Shown here: positions 9,802-31,266 of the stretch, in pieces
Position numbering within the stretch: position 1 is the stretch's first letter
Layout of the letters: each line of letters starts with the position of its first letter
Source: Paracoccaceae bacterium
Lineage (GTDB): Bacteria > Pseudomonadota > Alphaproteobacteria > Rhodobacterales > Rhodobacteraceae
Assembly: GCA_019090795.1 (NCBI GenBank)
Contig: JAHRVG010000004.1
Location: 1-64,000, forward strand
Direction of reading: 5' to 3'
DNA: 64,000 nt
Translations under genes and position numbers: made by a program
The notes under the pieces: generated by a model
The model's input: only the letters and a program-made list of their open reading frames with translations
Database searches by the model: none
What the model was told of the DNA's origin: nothing

Positions 9802-10707
9802 ATGGACCGCCTAACCGAAATGGAAGCATTTGCAAGTGTTGTAGACCTTGGCGGGTTTACCGATGCTGCACGCAAAATGGGTCTGTCAAAATCTGCCATC
9901 TCCAAACATGTTTCATCCCTAGAGGCACGCCTCGGGGCCCGGTTGCTCAATCGCACAACGCGACGCGTTAGCCCGACGGAAATTGGGTTGGCCTATTATG
10001 ATAAGGCTCGACAGGTGCTTGATAACGCCTGCGAAGCCGACGCAATGGTTACCTCGATGCAATCCGCGCCAAAGGGTTCCCTGCGATTGTCGGCCACCAC
10101 CGATTTTGGGGTAAACCACATTTCCCGCGCGCTTGGGGCCTTTCTTAACCGATATCCGGAGATTAACGTCAATCTGGTGTTGTCAAACCGTCAGGTTGAC
10201 TTGATGTCAGAGGGCTTTGATCTGGCTATTCGCATCGGTGAAATGCAAGACAGCACCCTGCGAGCACGAAAACTGGCTGAAACGAACATGCGGGTGATCG
10301 GGTCACCAGAATACTTTGAAGAACACGGCACGCCGGAAAAAATTGATGACCTTTCACACCACAAGCTTTTGCATTTTTCCAACCAATCCAATGGTAATGT
10401 CTGGAAAATGACTTCGCCCAGTGGTGAAAAACGTCTGGTTCGGGCGGGTGGCAGCCTGACAGTAAATGATGGCCAATCCCTGCTGCGCGCTGCCGAAGCT
10501 GGTCTCGGGATCGCCTATTTGCCAAGTTATCTGTATCACGAAGCGGTCGAGGACGGTCGCCTGTTACTTGCGATGCCAGATTTGCCGGTAGAGGTGTTGC
10601 CAGTGAGCGTGGTGTATCCTCCGGGCTTGTACACACAGCCCAAATTGCGTGCCTTCATTGATTTCCTAGTGGAGCACTTCAAATCAAAAGGGCCAGAAAT
10701 CTGGTAA
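9802..10707 (+). CDS. LysR-family transcriptional regulator
   Basis: MDRLTEMEAFASVVDLGGFTDAARKMGLSKSAISKHVSSLEARLGARLLNRTTRR N-terminal wHTH. Confidence 0.92.
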   Translation: MDRLTEMEAFASVVDLGGFTDAARKMGLSKSAISKHVSSLEARLGARLLNRTTRRVSPTEIGLAYYDKARQVLDNACEADAMVTSMQSAPKGSLRLSATTDFGVNHISRALGAFLNRYPEINVNLVLSNRQVDLMSEGFDLAIRIGEMQDSTLRARKLAETNMRVIGSPEYFEEHGTPEKIDDLSHHKLLHFSNQSNGNVWKMTSPSGEKRLVRAGGSLTVNDGQSLLRAAEAGLGIAYLPSYLYHEAVEDGRLLLAMPDLPVEVLPVSVVYPPGLYTQPKLRAFIDFLVEHFKSKGPEIW

Positions 10708-10721
10708 CATCAGTCACTTAT

Positions 10722-11639
10722 CTACTTGGAGAAAACCGCCTCAACACGGCGGTTTTTTGCTCTGCCGACGTCGGTTTCGTTGGTTGCCCTTGGGGAAAGA
10801 AAGCCAATTCCGTGGGCCGAAAGCCGCTTTCTCTGAATGCCATGTGCATTGACCAACAGATTCAGCACGGTCATTGCCCGCTTCTTAGACAAAGCAATAT
10901 TTCCGTCAAGCGATCCCGACATATCGGAATGACCAACAAGAAAAACCTTGAGGGTCTTGTTTTGGATCAATCGTTCGGCAAGCTTTGCTATGCTGCCGTT
11001 CCGGTCATTTCCCAACTTGGCACTGCCGGTTTCAAACTCCAACCCCTCTAAAACAAACGATAGGTTTCCCTGTTTCGGTAAGGGGGGGGGCACGGCCAGG
11101 TTTTCCATTGTATCAACCTTAAAAACTGTTGCTAACTCTGGTGCATATTCAGTCATCTGCACATAAACAGAAGTAGGCGATTTGCTGAGCAGAAAAGTTA
11201 CATAGGCTTGCGCGACAGACCCTTTTTGCCGGGCGCTGACAAAACGGAAATCGCGCAGATCTACGCGCATCTTCGGCTCTGCCACAACATCAATCGCAAA
11301 GCGAAAATCAAATCCACCACAGCTTTCAGTTTGGCAAAACAACAGAACTTCGTAGTCAGAGCTTTCCAACTGATCCAGGATGTTTTTCTGCACCTCGGCC
11401 AAAGTCTGCTCGCCCCCAAACGCCCATACCGAACGGCGAATGTCTTCGGGTGCTTTTGCGGTGATCAGACCCTCCGGCCCATACGGTTTAACAGCAACAA
11501 AAGGTGACATTTCCGTTTCTTTGCGGGAATAAGTCTCCTTGGCCCCTAACGGCAATTGCAACACGAATTCAGCTGCTACGCTGGTGTTGAGGGCAAGCAA
11601 GAGAATGCCCGCCCATAACAATAAACCGAAAAACCTCAT
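10722..11639 (-). CDS. OmpA C-terminal domain (peptidoglycan-binding) protein with signal peptide
   Basis: MRFFGLLLWAGILLLALNTSVAAE signal; LEFETGSAKL...FLVGHSDMSGSLDGNIALSKKRAMTVLNLLV...NRRVEAVF. Confidence 0.88.
   Translation of the reverse strand: MRFFGLLLWAGILLLALNTSVAAEFVLQLPLGAKETYSRKETEMSPFVAVKPYGPEGLITAKAPEDIRRSVWAFGGEQTLAEVQKNILDQLESSDYEVLLFCQTESCGGFDFRFAIDVVAEPKMRVDLRDFRFVSARQKGSVAQAYVTFLLSKSPTSVYVQMTEYAPELATVFKVDTMENLAVPPPLPKQGNLSFVLEGLEFETGSAKLGNDRNGSIAKLAERLIQNKTLKVFLVGHSDMSGSLDGNIALSKKRAMTVLNLLVNAHGIQRKRLSAHGIGFLSPRATNETDVGRAKNRRVEAVFSK
10732..10758 (+). terminator. Rho-independent terminator for the + strand LysR gene, lying inside the 3' end of the convergent OmpA-like CDS
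   Basis: AAAACCGCC-TCAACAC-GGCGGTTTTTT: GC stem plus T-run, 24 bp after the lysR stop. Confidence 0.75.
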
Positions 11640-21906: not shown

Positions 21907-22739
21907 GATGCTAACACCGCTTCTCTCAAGGCTGCATCTACCTCAGGTCTTTGACCAAACCAGTCGTGAAACCCTGGAACCGCTTGATGCAACAACATTC
22001 CCAGACCATCCACCGCCAACAATCCACGTTGTTCAGCCTGAAGCAGGAAATCTGTCTTTAGGGGGTTATAAACAATATCAGTCACCAAAGCCCCAAAGGG
22101 CGCCTTAGCCAGCGAGACTTCCAGCGGTGGCTGTCCAACCATACCCAATGACGTGGTGTTCACAATGGTGGCGGCATCACTGAACAGATCATGCACCTCT
22201 GTCCAGTTGCGAACTTCTACCCGTCCGCCAAAATGGCTTTGCAAAACCTCTCCTCGCGCCCGGGTGCGGTTGGCCAGGATCACCTTTGGGGCCCCTTCGG
22301 CCAATAAAGAAGAAATCACCGCCCGCGCCGCGCCACCTGCGCCCAGGACAACCGCAGTACCCGCAGTGGCATCCCAATCTGGTTCTTCCTGTTTCAGGTT
22401 ATTGATAAACCCGATCCCGTCAGTGTTATCCGCATGAATGCCGCCATCCGCCCGAAAAGAAATCGTATTAGCGGCACCAATCAAAGCTGCACGATCAGTA
22501 ACGGAATTGGCAATCGCCAGAACGCTTTCTTTGTAGGGAATAGTTACGTTTACCCCGACAAAACCAAGCCGCGGCATTGAACGGAGCGTTTCTTCGAATT
22601 CCTGCAAACGAATGCCAACGGGCACATAATACCCCTCCAACCCGTATTTTTTCAGCCAATAGCCATGAATACGGGGGGATTTACTGTGGGAAATCGGCCA
22701 CCCGACAACGCCAGCCAAGGGAATACGTTCGGTTGTCAT
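21903..22739 (-). CDS. aroE: shikimate dehydrogenase
   Basis: LAGVVGWPISHSKSPRIHGYWL, GVNVTIPYKESVL, VLGAGGAARAVI. Confidence 0.96.
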   Translation of the reverse strand: MTTERIPLAGVVGWPISHSKSPRIHGYWLKKYGLEGYYVPVGIRLQEFEETLRSMPRLGFVGVNVTIPYKESVLAIANSVTDRAALIGAANTISFRADGGIHADNTDGIGFINNLKQEEPDWDATAGTAVVLGAGGAARAVISSLLAEGAPKVILANRTRARGEVLQSHFGGRVEVRNWTEVHDLFSDAATIVNTTSLGMVGQPPLEVSLAKAPFGALVTDIVYNPLKTDFLLQAEQRGLLAVDGLGMLLHQAVPGFHDWFGQRPEVDAALREAVLAS

Positions 22740-23335
22740 TCTGTCAGAACTCCTCTGGTTCTAAGAAAACCCAGCACCTCAATCAGGGGCAGGCCCAGAA
22801 TGGTAAAGTAATCCCCCTGAACCCGTGTGAATAATTGTACACCTTCGGTTTCCAGTTTGTAACAACCAACTGTGGTGAGCAGATCATTTTTGTGCTGCTT
22901 GATATACGCATCAAGAAACTGATTCGAAAATTCGCGCATCACTAATTGCGCACGGCCAACATGGCGCCACACCGGCTTGCCATCCTCAAAAATAACCACA
23001 GCGCTAAGCAACTGATGGCCCTGCCCGCGCAGCTTGCTAAGGTGGATTCTTGCTTCAGTCAAATCCCGGGGCTTGCTAAAGATTTCTCCATTACATACCA
23101 GTATCTGATCTGCCGAAATAACCAGATGATCAGGATGTTTTCGGCTGACCCGCATTCCCTTATATTCAGCCAATGTGTCAACTATATCCAAGGGTCGAGT
23201 ACCTTCAGCCTGAAGGGATACCAGAATAGATGCCTCGTCCACGGGCGAAACCAGAACATCAAATTGAATTCCGGCGTTGCTCAATAGCTGTTGTCGGGCA
23301 GAAGAACCGGAGGCGAGGATTATCTTATGTTTCAT
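22736..23335 (-). CDS. maf: Maf-family nucleotide pyrophosphatase
   Basis: KIILASGSSARQQLLSNAGI, VISADQILVCNGEIFSKP. Confidence 0.93.
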   Translation of the reverse strand: MKHKIILASGSSARQQLLSNAGIQFDVLVSPVDEASILVSLQAEGTRPLDIVDTLAEYKGMRVSRKHPDHLVISADQILVCNGEIFSKPRDLTEARIHLSKLRGQGHQLLSAVVIFEDGKPVWRHVGRAQLVMREFSNQFLDAYIKQHKNDLLTTVGCYKLETEGVQLFTRVQGDYFTILGLPLIEVLGFLRTRGVLTE

Positions 23336-23833
23336 AAGAAAGCTTTACGGTGTTCCGAATGCAGTTTCCAGATGGTTAAATAGCCGCTGGATAAACCCTG
23401 CAAAAGGTTTGTACTGAATTGGGGATAACTGGGGACAATATTGGTAACTTTAGCAAATCGGGAGGAAATCGAAATTAGTGGGATTTTTACCCTTCGTCTT
23501 TCAAAAGTTTTCCTCAACTGTATAACTTTTCCAGATCCCTCCTATACAGTGGATTGTTTGCAATTATTCTTTACCTATAATGTATTTTTCAACAGAAACA
23601 TTTTTATTAAGTATTTGTTTTTTAATTGTAATAACAGTTATTCACCATTTGTTATCGTGTTTAAAATTGCAGAAAGGTTTCATGGGACACCTGTTGATAA
23701 ATAAGTAATCCACAGAATTTTTCCTTCCCTACTACATAATCATCTTTTCTAAATATCATTTATTATTATTGTATAATGGCAAAGCTTGGATCACTGGGCT
23801 AATGATAGATTTCAAAAACAAGTGAAAGCTAAA
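23336..23833. other. oriC: candidate chromosomal replication origin (oriC): AT-rich intergenic region with DnaA-box-like 9-mers
   Basis: Flanked by leftward maf-aroE-coaE-dnaQ and rightward hemJ-rho-mnmE-mnmG-rsmG-parAB, as around known alphaproteobacterial origins. 9-mers: TGGGGATAA (23420-23428), TGGGGACAA (23430-23438), TTATTCACC (23638-23646), TGTTGATAA (23692-23700), TAATCCACA (23706-23714). Long AT-rich tract about 23560-23670. Confidence 0.7.
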
Positions 23834-24286
23834 ATGACTGAACAGCTGGCTGATGTGTATCCCTGGATAAAATCTTTACATATCATTTCGGTGATATCTT
23901 GGATGGCAGGTTTATTATATCTACCACGCCTCTTCGTAAACCATGTTGAACGCGCACCTAACGGTTCCGAGATGGCGGAAATTTTCAAGGGTATGGAATA
24001 TCGTTTGTTGCGCTACATTATGAACCCCGCGATGATTGCCACATGGTTGTTTGGTCTCCTCTTGGCAGTCACACCAGGAATTGTTGATTGGGCTTCTGGA
24101 TACACATATGTGAAACTGGTGATGATTTTGGGAATGACAGGATTTCATCAATGGCTTGGTTTGCGCAGGAAGGTTTTTGAGCAAGATCAGAATACAAGAT
24201 CAGGAAAACACTATCGGATTGCAAACGAGGTGCCGACATTGATGATGATTATCATCGTGATAATGATTGTTGTACGTCCTTTCTAA
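23834..24286 (+). CDS. hemJ: protoporphyrinogen oxidase HemJ (UPF0093/CopD-like membrane protein; ORF open from 23786)
   Basis: MTEQLADVYPWIKSLHIISVISWMAGLLYLPRLFVNHVE..., NEVPTLMMIIIVIMIVVRPF. Confidence 0.92.
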   Translation: MTEQLADVYPWIKSLHIISVISWMAGLLYLPRLFVNHVERAPNGSEMAEIFKGMEYRLLRYIMNPAMIATWLFGLLLAVTPGIVDWASGYTYVKLVMILGMTGFHQWLGLRRKVFEQDQNTRSGKHYRIANEVPTLMMIIIVIMIVVRPF

Positions 24287-27020: not shown

Positions 27021-28898
27021 GTGTTTCACGTGAAACAAACCGGTTATGATGTATTGGTTATTGGTGGTGGTCATGCGGGTGCTGAGGCGGCGCAGGCAGC
27101 TTGGCGCATGGGTGCAAGAACTGCTTTGATCACACATAGTTTTGCCAAGATTGGCGAAATGTCTTGTAACCCGGCGATTGGCGGGCTCGGTAAAGGCCAT
27201 CTTGTTCGAGAAATCGACGCCTTGGATGGCGTTATGGGGAGAGTTGCTGATAAATCTGGAATCCAGTTCCGTCTTCTCAATCGACGCAAAGGGCCTGCAG
27301 TTCAGGGACCGCGTACACAATCTGACAGGGTACTTTATCGCCAGGCAATGCAGCTGGAGTTTACGAATAAGCACGGTTTGGACGTTATTGAAGCAGAAGT
27401 GGTTGATTTTCAAATAAAATCCGGACGCGTTACCGGCGTTGTATTGGCAGATGGTACATATATTTCCAGTCATGCGGTGATTTTGACAGCCGGTACATTT
27501 CTCAGGGGCGTCATCCACATCGGTGATGTAGCCACCCCGGGCGGACGTATGGGAGATCTCCCCTCTGTTGGATTGGCCGAGCGGTTGGATTCATTTGATT
27601 TGCCTAAAGGAAGGCTTAAAACCGGAACACCGCCGCGTTTGGATGGCCGGTCAATAAATTGGGATGTTCTAGAAAGCCAGCCAGGGGATGAAAACCCCAC
27701 TATGTTCTCCTTTCTTTCAAAAGGTCCAGTTGCACAGCAAATTTCTTGCGGTGTGACTCACACAAATCAGAAAACACATGACATTATTGCGCAAAATCTG
27801 AGTTCCTCTGCAATGTATGGGGGGCATATTGAGGGCGTGGGCCCGCGATATTGTCCTTCTATAGAGGATAAAGTAGTTAGGTTTTCTGACAAAGAATCGC
27901 ACCAAATTTTTCTGGAACCGGAGAGTTTGCAGGGAACAACTGTCTACCCGAATGGCATTTCGACGTCTCTGCCCGAAAAAGTGCAGAAAGAATATGTGAC
28001 ATCCATTTTTGGCTTGGAAGAGGCGGTTATCGTTCAGCCTGGCTATGCAATTGAATATGATTATTTTGATCCGCGCGCTCTTCGCTCCACTTTGGAAGTG
28101 AAGGATGTTCCGGGGCTGTTTTTTGCAGGCCAAATCAACGGCACTACAGGCTATGAAGAGGCTGCGGCGCAGGGTTTGGTCGCAGGCCTGAACGCAGCAA
28201 GTTCAGCATTGGGAAAAGAACCTGTGAGTTTTGGGCGTGAAATGGCCTACATTGGTGTTATGATTGATGATCTCATCACCCGAGGGGTAAGCGAACCTTA
28301 CCGGATGTTTACCTCGCGGGCGGAATACAGATTGCTGTTGCGGGCGGACAATGCAGATCAAAGATTGACAGCGTTTGGGAATGACATTGGCTGTGTGGGT
28401 GAAAACCGATGGTCAGAGTTTCGTCGGAAAATGTCGCTATTGAGTGGCGCAAAGGCCCGCTTAAAGGCAAGAACTGCTACGCCAAACGAAGTAGGGGCAG
28501 TAGGAGTTTCAATCCGTAAAGATGGACAGAGGCGCGATGGAATGGAGTTATTGTCGTATAAGGATATCGGGTTTTCGAAGCTGACAAAAATTTGGCCCGA
28601 TTTGTCCGATGTGGATGATGCTACGGTTGAACAGCTTGAAAAAGATGCAGTTTATCAAAATTACATCAATAGACAGCAGGCTGATATTGATGCAATGCAT
28701 GGAGACGAAATGTTGAAAATCCCTGCAGGGGTTTCATATATAGGAACACCGGGCCTTTCTATTGAACTACAGCAAAAGCTGGAACGTACACGGCCAGAAA
28801 CCTTGGGGCAGGCTCGCAGAATTGATGGAATGACACCGTCTGCTTTGACTTTGTTGTTGGTAAAAATTAAGAAGATGACGGTGGGGAAACGTGCCTGA
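27021..28898 (+). CDS. mnmG: tRNA uridine-5-carboxymethylaminomethyl modification enzyme MnmG (likely GTG start at 27021; ORF open from 27003)
   Basis: [59 protein letters not shown]. Confidence 0.97.
27022..27037. promoter_or_regulatory. parS: parS centromere site (perfect 16-mer)
   Basis: TGTTTCACGTGAAACA exact consensus palindrome, at the 5' end of mnmG, 2.5 kb from parA. Confidence 0.95.
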
Positions 28899-29536
28899 TG
28901 GCAGATGACGCACAGTTTCGGCAGCTATCCAGGATCGTAGATGTTTCATATGAAACATTCACTAAGATATCTATCTATCATAAATTGTTAGAGAAATGGA
29001 ATATGTCGATCAACCTTGTGGGTAGGTCAACAATTGAGAATGGCTGGGAGCGCCATTTTTTGGATTCAGCACAATTGTGGCCCGAGAGCACCGAGTTTAA
29101 GTACTGGGTTGATATTGGTTCAGGGGCCGGTTTTCCAGGTTTGCTGATCTCCATTATTGCGTCTGAATTGCGACCAGATGCCAAATTTCATCTTGTTGAG
29201 AGCGATGCGCGCAAGTGCGCTTTCCTTAGAAATGTTTCACGTGAAACAAGTGTACCTGTGAAAGTACACAATTGTAGAATAGAAGATTTCAGCGGATCTC
29301 AGGCTGATTTTTTATCCGCCCGAGCTTTGGCACCTCTAGACAAACTTTTAACCTATGCAGAGAAAATTCTGGCTCCTGCAGGGGAATGCCTGTTTTTGAA
29401 GGGAAAGGATTGTGATAAAGAGCTGGAGAAGGCCTACAAGAACTGGGATTTCAAACTGGATAGAAGGCCCAGTATTGTTCAAGGGGATAGCAGCGTCCTC
29501 AAAATAGGAGACATTAGTCGTGCCAAACCCTCTTGA
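28898..29536 (+). CDS. rsmG: 16S rRNA (guanine527-N7)-methyltransferase RsmG
   Basis: NLVGRSTIENGWERHFLDSAQLWP, WVDIGSGAGFPGLLISI, HLVESDARKCAFLRNVSRET. Confidence 0.95.
   Translation: MADDAQFRQLSRIVDVSYETFTKISIYHKLLEKWNMSINLVGRSTIENGWERHFLDSAQLWPESTEFKYWVDIGSGAGFPGLLISIIASELRPDAKFHLVESDARKCAFLRNVSRETSVPVKVHNCRIEDFSGSQADFLSARALAPLDKLLTYAEKILAPAGECLFLKGKDCDKELEKAYKNWDFKLDRRPSIVQGDSSVLKIGDISRAKPS
28942..28957. promoter_or_regulatory. degenerate parS-like palindrome
   Basis: TGTTTCATATGAAACA: perfect palindrome, two symmetric changes from parS (CACGTG to CATATG). Confidence 0.5.
29233..29248. promoter_or_regulatory. parS: parS centromere site (perfect 16-mer)
   Basis: TGTTTCACGTGAAACA exact consensus inside rsmG (codons NVSRET). 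Confidence 0.95.
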
Positions 29537-30320
29537 AGTTATAGGTAAATCTCAAATTATTTCTGTTGCAAATCAGAAGGGTGGCGTGGGAAAAACAACA
29601 ACTGCAATAAACTTGGGTACGGCCATGGCCGCGGTGGGCAAGCGGGTTTTGTTGATTGATCTTGATCCGCAAGGAAATGCTTCGACGGGTTTAGGGGTTG
29701 ATGTAAGCGATCGTATTTATACAACGTATGATGTTTTAGTAGACAGGGTACCGCTTGAAAAAGCTATTCTGGAAACAGGGGTTCCGAATCTGTTTCTCGC
29801 CCCGGCCACTGTTGATCTCAGCTCTGCCGATGTTGATCTCGTACATGATCAGCGTCGGGTGCTGCGGCTGCGGATGGCAATTGACGAAGCGCGCCAGAGT
29901 GGGCACGACTTTGACTACATTATGATTGATTGCCCACCGTCGTTGAACTTGCTGACCTTGAATGCGCTTGCCTGCAGTGGTTCTGTGATCGTGCCCCTAC
30001 AGGCCGAATTTTTTGCATTGGAGGGGCTTTCTCAACTTATGCTAACCATTCGGGAAGTGCGGCAAAGCCTTAATCCGGTGCTAAAGATCGAAGGAATTGT
30101 CTTAACAATGTTTGACCAACGCAATAACCTGTCACTTCAGGTTGAGAAGGACGTGCGCGACAACCTTGGCGATCTGGTGTACGAAACTAAGATCCCCAGA
30201 AATGTTCGTTTGAGTGAAGCTCCGTCTTTTGGAATTCCCGCAATCTTGTACGATCATAAAAGCCGGGGAAGCATTGCATATCAAAAGCTTGCGGCGGAAA
30301 TTTTGCGTAAAGCTCAATAA
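29520..30320 (+). CDS. parA: chromosome-partitioning ATPase ParA/Soj
   Basis: IISVANQKGGVGKTTTAINLGTAMAAVGKRVLLIDLDPQGNASTGLG. Confidence 0.97.
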   Translation: MPNPLEVIGKSQIISVANQKGGVGKTTTAINLGTAMAAVGKRVLLIDLDPQGNASTGLGVDVSDRIYTTYDVLVDRVPLEKAILETGVPNLFLAPATVDLSSADVDLVHDQRRVLRLRMAIDEARQSGHDFDYIMIDCPPSLNLLTLNALACSGSVIVPLQAEFFALEGLSQLMLTIREVRQSLNPVLKIEGIVLTMFDQRNNLSLQVEKDVRDNLGDLVYETKIPRNVRLSEAPSFGIPAILYDHKSRGSIAYQKLAAEILRKAQ

Positions 30321-30360: not shown

Positions 30361-31266
30361 ATGGCGAATAAAAAGGAAAAACGAGGGTTGGGGCGTGGCC
30401 TATCCGCCTTAATGGCGGATATTGAACCGGTTGAAGTTCGGCGCGGCGGTAATACGGGTTTAGAAGGCGGCGAAAGGCAGGTTCCGATTTCTCGGGTTCG
30501 GGCAAATCCTGACCAGCCGCGAAAAACGTTTGACGAGCAGGAGTTGCGTGAACTTTCTCGCTCCATTGCGGAAAAAGGTATAATTCAACCGCTTATTGTT
30601 CGCCCCGATCCCTCGCAGCCAAATCAGTTTCAAATTGTCGCGGGTGAGCGACGTTGGCGGGCAGCTCAGCTCGCCAAGGTGGATTCTGTGCCGGTACTTG
30701 TCCGGGCTTTGGATGATTTGGAAGTTCTTGAGATCGCGATTATTGAGAATATTCAAAGGGCTGATCTGAACCCGGTGGATGAAGCGGCCAGCTATCAACA
30801 GCTTATGGACAAATTTGGCCATACACAGGAGAAACTGTCTGAAGCACTTGGTAAAAGTAGAAGTCATATAGCCAATATGTTGCGGTTGTTGGGCTTGCCT
30901 GAGCCAATTCTAGGCTTGCTTCGGGGCGGGAACCTAAGCACGGGGCATGCTCGTGCCCTAATAACAGCGCCTAATCAGCTTGATCTTGCGCGTGAAGTTA
31001 TTGCCAAAGGGCTCTCAGTGCGCCAAACCGAAGCACTGGTCAAGCGAGCAGCGCAGCCGAAAAAGGAAAAGAAAGCGGCGCCAGTAAAAGACGCAGATAC
31101 ACGCTCCCTTGAGGTTGATTTGTCTGCCAATCTGGGAATGAAGGTTGCGATTGCTCATCGGGACGGATCAGAGAATGGTGCTGTAACAATCAAATATAAA
31201 ACTTTTGACGAGCTGGACGAGATTTGTAGAATTTTGTCGATTACTCATTCGGCCGGGTCCAAATAA
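30361..31266 (+). CDS. parB: chromosome-partitioning protein ParB (ORF open from 30214)
   Basis: KRGLGRGLSALMADI..., IVAGERRWRAAQLA, AIIENIQRADLNPVDEAASYQQL. Confidence 0.97.
   Translation: MANKKEKRGLGRGLSALMADIEPVEVRRGGNTGLEGGERQVPISRVRANPDQPRKTFDEQELRELSRSIAEKGIIQPLIVRPDPSQPNQFQIVAGERRWRAAQLAKVDSVPVLVRALDDLEVLEIAIIENIQRADLNPVDEAASYQQLMDKFGHTQEKLSEALGKSRSHIANMLRLLGLPEPILGLLRGGNLSTGHARALITAPNQLDLAREVIAKGLSVRQTEALVKRAAQPKKEKKAAPVKDADTRSLEVDLSANLGMKVAIAHRDGSENGAVTIKYKTFDELDEICRILSITHSAGSK

Follow-up and report, generated by a model that had tools for sequence, protein, structure and literature searches.

Gene context of the maf-hemJ gap

The window analysed here is the initial 64 kb of the 125,161-base contig C50, which belongs to a draft genome of 3.63 Mb in 141 contigs. 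Within it, an intergenic gap extends from the start of maf on the minus strand (23335) to the ATG of HemJ (23834), and its features are collected in Table 1. A sequence-only reading of this DNA had proposed the gap as a candidate chromosomal origin of replication from which maf-aroE-coaE-dnaQ run leftward and hemJ-rho-mnmE-mnmG-rsmG-parA-parB rightward, and this divergent arrangement was found as described. The order dnaQ-coaE-aroE-maf, gap, hemJ-rho-mnmEG-rsmG-parAB was kept in all 20 family loci, each read over 20 kb. The nearest relatives of HemJ came from two metagenome-assembled genomes (an uncultured Rhodobacteraceae and Amylibacter sp., 77% identity), and on this basis the present genome is assigned to the Rhodobacteraceae. 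In seven family genomes (L270-L276) hemJ was missing between rho and the origin and just distant UPF0093-like matches were present elsewhere, so another enzyme may perform that step of haem synthesis in them.

Table 1. Positions of the candidate origin, its elements and its neighbouring genes in the window
Feature	Position	Strand	Evidence
maf, left border gene (then aroE, coaE, dnaQ)	22736..23335	-	PF02545, E 1e-42
Candidate oriC, entire maf-hemJ intergenic region	23336..23833	.	GC minimum; skew minimum 64 bp off; position kept in 20/20 loci
Left DnaA-box cluster: CTGGATAAA; TGGGGATAA at 23420-23428 (= TTATCCCCA on minus strand); TGGGGACAA	23387..23440	-	Box calls; family consensus GTGGATAAcCCTGTGGATAa aligned nearby
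Second AT-rich low-stability stretch	23563..23662	.	Least stable 100 bp of the window (nearest-neighbour energy)
DnaA box TTATCAACA (= TGTTGATAA on +)	23692..23700	-	One mismatch to TTATCCACA
Conserved putative unwinding block: DnaA box followed by C-rich spacer (23715-23728) and three-base-periodic tract CTACTACATAATCATCTTTTC (23729-23749)	23704..23751	+	R1 and HMM matches
DnaA box TAATCCACA, most conserved box of the family	23706..23714	+	Alignments of relatives
Predicted DNA unwinding element	23728..23777	.	Least stable 50 bp of the window; strongly conserved in two closest relatives
hemJ (UPF0093), right border gene (then rho, mnmE, mnmG, rsmG)	23834..24286	+	PF03653, E 5e-61
parS TGTTTCACGTGAAACA	27022..27037	.	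One of just two genome matches (<=1 mismatch)
parS TGTTTCACGTGAAACA	29233..29248	.	Second of two genome matches (<=1 mismatch)
parA	29520..30320	+	PF13614, E 1e-58
parB	30364..31266	+	PF02195, PF17762, PF23552

A search of the whole genome for TGTTTCACGTGAAACA, allowing at most one mismatch, returned two sites, both 3-6 kb from the gap and shortly before parA and parB. The two parS sites overlap genes, one near the start of mnmG and the other inside rsmG, and the proteins encoded there therefore carry parS-encoded residues.

The absence of hemE from the window, remarked on in the same reading, was borne out: this genome carries hemE on contig C43 in a hemC-hemE-hemF cluster (C43:7581-10671, locus L057), away from the origin. 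The accompanying premise that hemE is a usual origin neighbour does not extend to this family, since hemE is not beside the origin in most Rhodobacteraceae (2 of 20 loci have it, bordering hemJ); its absence is a family trait and therefore no argument against an origin here. In many Alphaproteobacteria outside the Rhodobacteraceae hemE precedes hemJ and rho, and to judge from these gene orders hemE appears to have moved away from the origin locus. No COG1806 gene (Kinase-PPPase, PF03618) was detected in the whole genome, and one locus of a related genus (L035, from G058) has a COG1806-family gene (PF03618) between the gap and maf (10440-11300). COG1806 looks to have been lost in the present lineage and retained beside the origin in the related genus.

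DnaA boxes, duplex stability and a conserved block on the hemJ side

The gap is as AT-rich as the sequence-only reading had claimed, with a GC content of 32.7% compared with 49.9% for the window. The lowest-GC 498-bp stretch of the window (31.7%, from 23391) lies almost wholly within it, and the runner-up elsewhere reached 40.2%. Nearest-neighbour energies placed the least stable 50 bp of the window beside the DnaA boxes, as an AT-rich and easily unwound element, and the least stable 200 bp also fell within the gap. An Rfam search found no structured RNA in the gap region, and no GANTC occurred in the gap, which means little because the expected count was just 1.15.

DnaA-box-like 9-mers had also been noted, and three were found in the gap within one mismatch of TTATCCACA, compared with a mean of 0.18 in shuffled sequences (p about 0.001, 1000 shuffles). 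With up to two mismatches the count rose to nine, against a shuffle mean of 2.33, and none of the 1000 shuffles reached nine. Because the gap's own sequence was shuffled by dinucleotides to obtain the expectation, this clustering beyond chance is not explained by AT-richness. An exact match to TTATCCACA was not found in the gap, which counts against the origin reading. Among the individual sites named earlier, TAATCCACA (on the plus strand), TGTTGATAA and TGGGGATAA were all present; TTATTCACC, near 23639, was present as a weaker site with two mismatches. The proposed tandem of TGGGGATAAC and TGGGGACAAT corresponds to two similar adjacent 10-mers, but the repeat search reported no such repeat, nor any other direct repeat inside the gap.

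Box enrichment was also seen in the family, with 99 DnaA boxes across 33 gaps against 4.2 expected. Alignment of these 33 gaps gave a common layout, with boxes on the left (GTGGATAAcCCTGTGGATAa), further boxes in the middle and, on the hemJ side, a block consisting of TAATCCACA, a spacer, CCCTACATCATCATCTTTT and a T-rich stretch. In the window, the tract of this block is G-poor and runs into the least stable DNA. An HMM built without the window scored 11.7 bits at 23705-23751, the next best match in the window scoring 4.4 bits. In almost all of the 40 held-out genera its best match lay a corresponding distance from hemJ, the exceptions being L149 (no match), L125 (hemE in between) and L156 (below the control maximum). 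The control sequence, 1.2 Mb in all, scored at most 6.6 bits.

A second model of the block, R1, was built from 25 of the 40 held-out genera and gave a single significant match across the 3.6-Mb genome (23704-23751, 23.3 bits, E 1.5e-4), followed by a match of 11.1 bits (E 1.09). In the seven genomes lacking hemJ at this position, R1 still located the block between rho and maf. Outside the Rhodobacteraceae, R1 gave weaker matches directly upstream of hemE, in Defluviicoccus and in other MAGs. A similar block of a box and ACTAC/ACATC repeats was observed upstream of hemE in L186, L187, L215 and L231, also outside the Rhodobacteraceae, which suggests that the box-repeat block may be older than the family.

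GC skew and the reading of the gap as an origin

The cumulative GC-skew minimum, which the sequence-only reading had expected near 23.4-23.8 kb, was located at 23272, 64 bp from the gap, over 124 kb read from a single contig of the 141-contig draft. Two skew observations count against the origin reading: the left 23 kb of the contig has weak skew with a positive stretch at 16-20 kb, and in several relatives (e.g., L038, L047, L049, L051 and L052) the skew minimum of the 20-kb locus fell outside the gap. The chromosomes of three closed relatives were sampled all the way round, and skew there was for the most part negative to the left of the locus and positive to its right; this was clearest at a distance in G003 and G056 and noisy near the locus, and the shallow skew of G095 is not decisive alone. 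The genes dnaA and dnaN lie together on another contig, C130. A skew switch near dnaA had been named as evidence that would speak against the gap, and none was seen, the skew of C130 being positive over its first 40 kb, dnaA included.

The skew, the synteny, the parS sites, the DnaA boxes and a family-wide block that is unique in this genome agree with one another and support the candidate origin. Judged on these sequence features, there is very little doubt that the maf-hemJ gap is the chromosomal oriC. At such an origin, DnaA would bind boxes on both sides of the gap and, from the hemJ-side boxes (23692-23714), would extend over the C-rich spacer to a single strand of the repeat tract, separating the two strands within the 50 bp of lowest stability. 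The helicase would be loaded there, two forks would depart, one via maf-aroE and one via hemJ-rho-parAB, and ParB on the two parS sites would move the new origins apart.

The gap might instead serve only as an AT-rich promoter region shared by maf and hemJ, which diverge from it, its DnaA-like sites being regulatory or due to chance. Diverging genes do need promoters, and weak sigma-70-like sites are present on the minus strand; however, promoter-like sites numbered 3 against 4.0 in shuffles and thus showed no excess, and this explanation leaves the box enrichment, the parS sites and the skew switch unaccounted for. Moreover, the block keeps its place between rho and maf in genomes without hemJ there, and in some other Alphaproteobacteria it is found upstream of hemE; it is therefore not tied to one gene. 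We consider a promoter region alone very improbable.

Still less probable is an origin beside dnaA-dnaN, with the maf-hemJ locus carrying partition genes alone, as might be imagined from the gamma-Proteobacteria, which, among others, usually have oriC adjoining dnaA (PMC1914354). The positive skew of C130, with no switch at dnaA, argues against this placement, as do the GC content of 51% directly upstream of dnaA and the lack of an R1 match there. A second origin of plasmid or chromid type integrated at the gap is just as hard to credit: plasmids also carry parA and parB, but the neighbours here are chromosomal housekeeping genes in family-wide order and no replication-initiator gene was recognised by eye among the ORFs at 18-36 kb.

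With the maf-hemJ gap as oriC, the origin of a little-studied Rhodobacteraceae lineage would be fixed in a draft genome, and the anchor of the Rhodobacteraceae origin would be rho-(hemJ)-gap-maf, not hemE. The block would furthermore provide a short sequence model for finding origins in fragmented Rhodobacteraceae assemblies, without recourse to dnaA or whole-chromosome skew.

Comparison with known replication origins

Kopejtka et al. 2019 (PMC6699656) located the oriC of 101 Rhodobacteraceae from the skew minimum, a local minimum in GC content and proximity to parAB. The gap is like these origins in its skew minimum, local GC minimum, DnaA boxes and proximity to parAB, thus showing every feature used for placement in that survey, and nothing material differs from the origins as presented there. 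It is almost certainly an ordinary chromosomal oriC of the kind already curated in that work.

Cori of Caulobacter crescentus sits between hemE and COG1806 (PMC1914354). The gap resembles it in being AT-rich, in carrying DnaA boxes and in having the position, relative to maf and hemJ-rho, that is seen in hemE-bearing relatives, but it differs in its border genes, with hemE on C43 and COG1806 absent from the genome. In addition, neither a CtrA site (TTAA-N7-TTAA, at most one mismatch) nor an IHF consensus, the Caulobacter features searched for, was found in the gap. The Caulobacter-type context assigned by the sequence-only reading thus holds for the place between maf and hemJ-rho and fails for the border genes and for the CtrA and IHF sites. 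The wider Caulobacter order of maf, gap and hemJ-rho is retained, and some relatives keep hemE or COG1806 there.

A basal unwinding system of DnaA boxes and DnaA-trios is known from B. subtilis and has been predicted for 85% of the origins examined (PMC8287927). The hemJ-side block has in common with it a box, a short GC-rich spacer, three-base repeats starting with 3'-GAT-5' on the lower strand and an easily melted tract; in contrast to the B. subtilis trios, the later repeats of Rhodobacteraceae are mostly 3'-GTA-5' or 3'-GTT-5' in that register. In many relatives a tandem second box precedes the spacer, and there the trio spacer may count from the second box instead. The tract in the window (CTA CTA CAT) reads as two canonical trios and one variant. 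By sequence, the block resembles the published DnaA-box/DnaA-trio module, with the trio rule fitted loosely.

How loosely was gauged from 73 sequences anchored on the box alone. Three-base periodicity beside the box was pronounced (z at lag 3 of 8.8 for C, 10.7 for A and 8.8 for T), these values being overstated because the shuffles ignore the relatedness of the 73 sequences. Strict runs of three 3'-[GA]A[TA]-5' with a spacer of at most 16 bp were not enriched (1 of 73 versus 4.0 in shuffles), and a box followed within the same distance by at least three lower-strand NAN trios was found in 24 of 73 versus 36.5. Runs of at least three 3'-GWW-5' were enriched, both with a spacer of at most 16 (21/73 versus 1.5) and with one of at most 28 (34/73 versus 2.5). 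Four or more NAN trios with a spacer of at most 28 occurred in 45 of 73 sequences compared with 24.8 in shuffles, and the tract can alternatively be read, with that same enrichment for at least four, as 3'-TAG-5' trios having a middle A and a longer spacer.

On the strength of the three-base periodicity and the enrichment of GWW runs, we tentatively suggest that Rhodobacteraceae, and perhaps other Alphaproteobacteria, may open their origin via a variant trio, in which one 3'-GAT-5' is followed by 3'-G(T/A)(A/T)-5' and the fixed base is the first G, not the middle A; we hold this possible and somewhat doubtful. Judged by title and abstract, the literature retrieved for DnaA-trio with alphaproteobacteria or Rhodobacter contained nothing on a Rhodobacteraceae origin. 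The repeat tract allows the limits of the DnaA-trio rule to be tested concretely, and the variant trio, if real, would be the 'deviant trio' that was suspected, though not shown, in PMC8287927.
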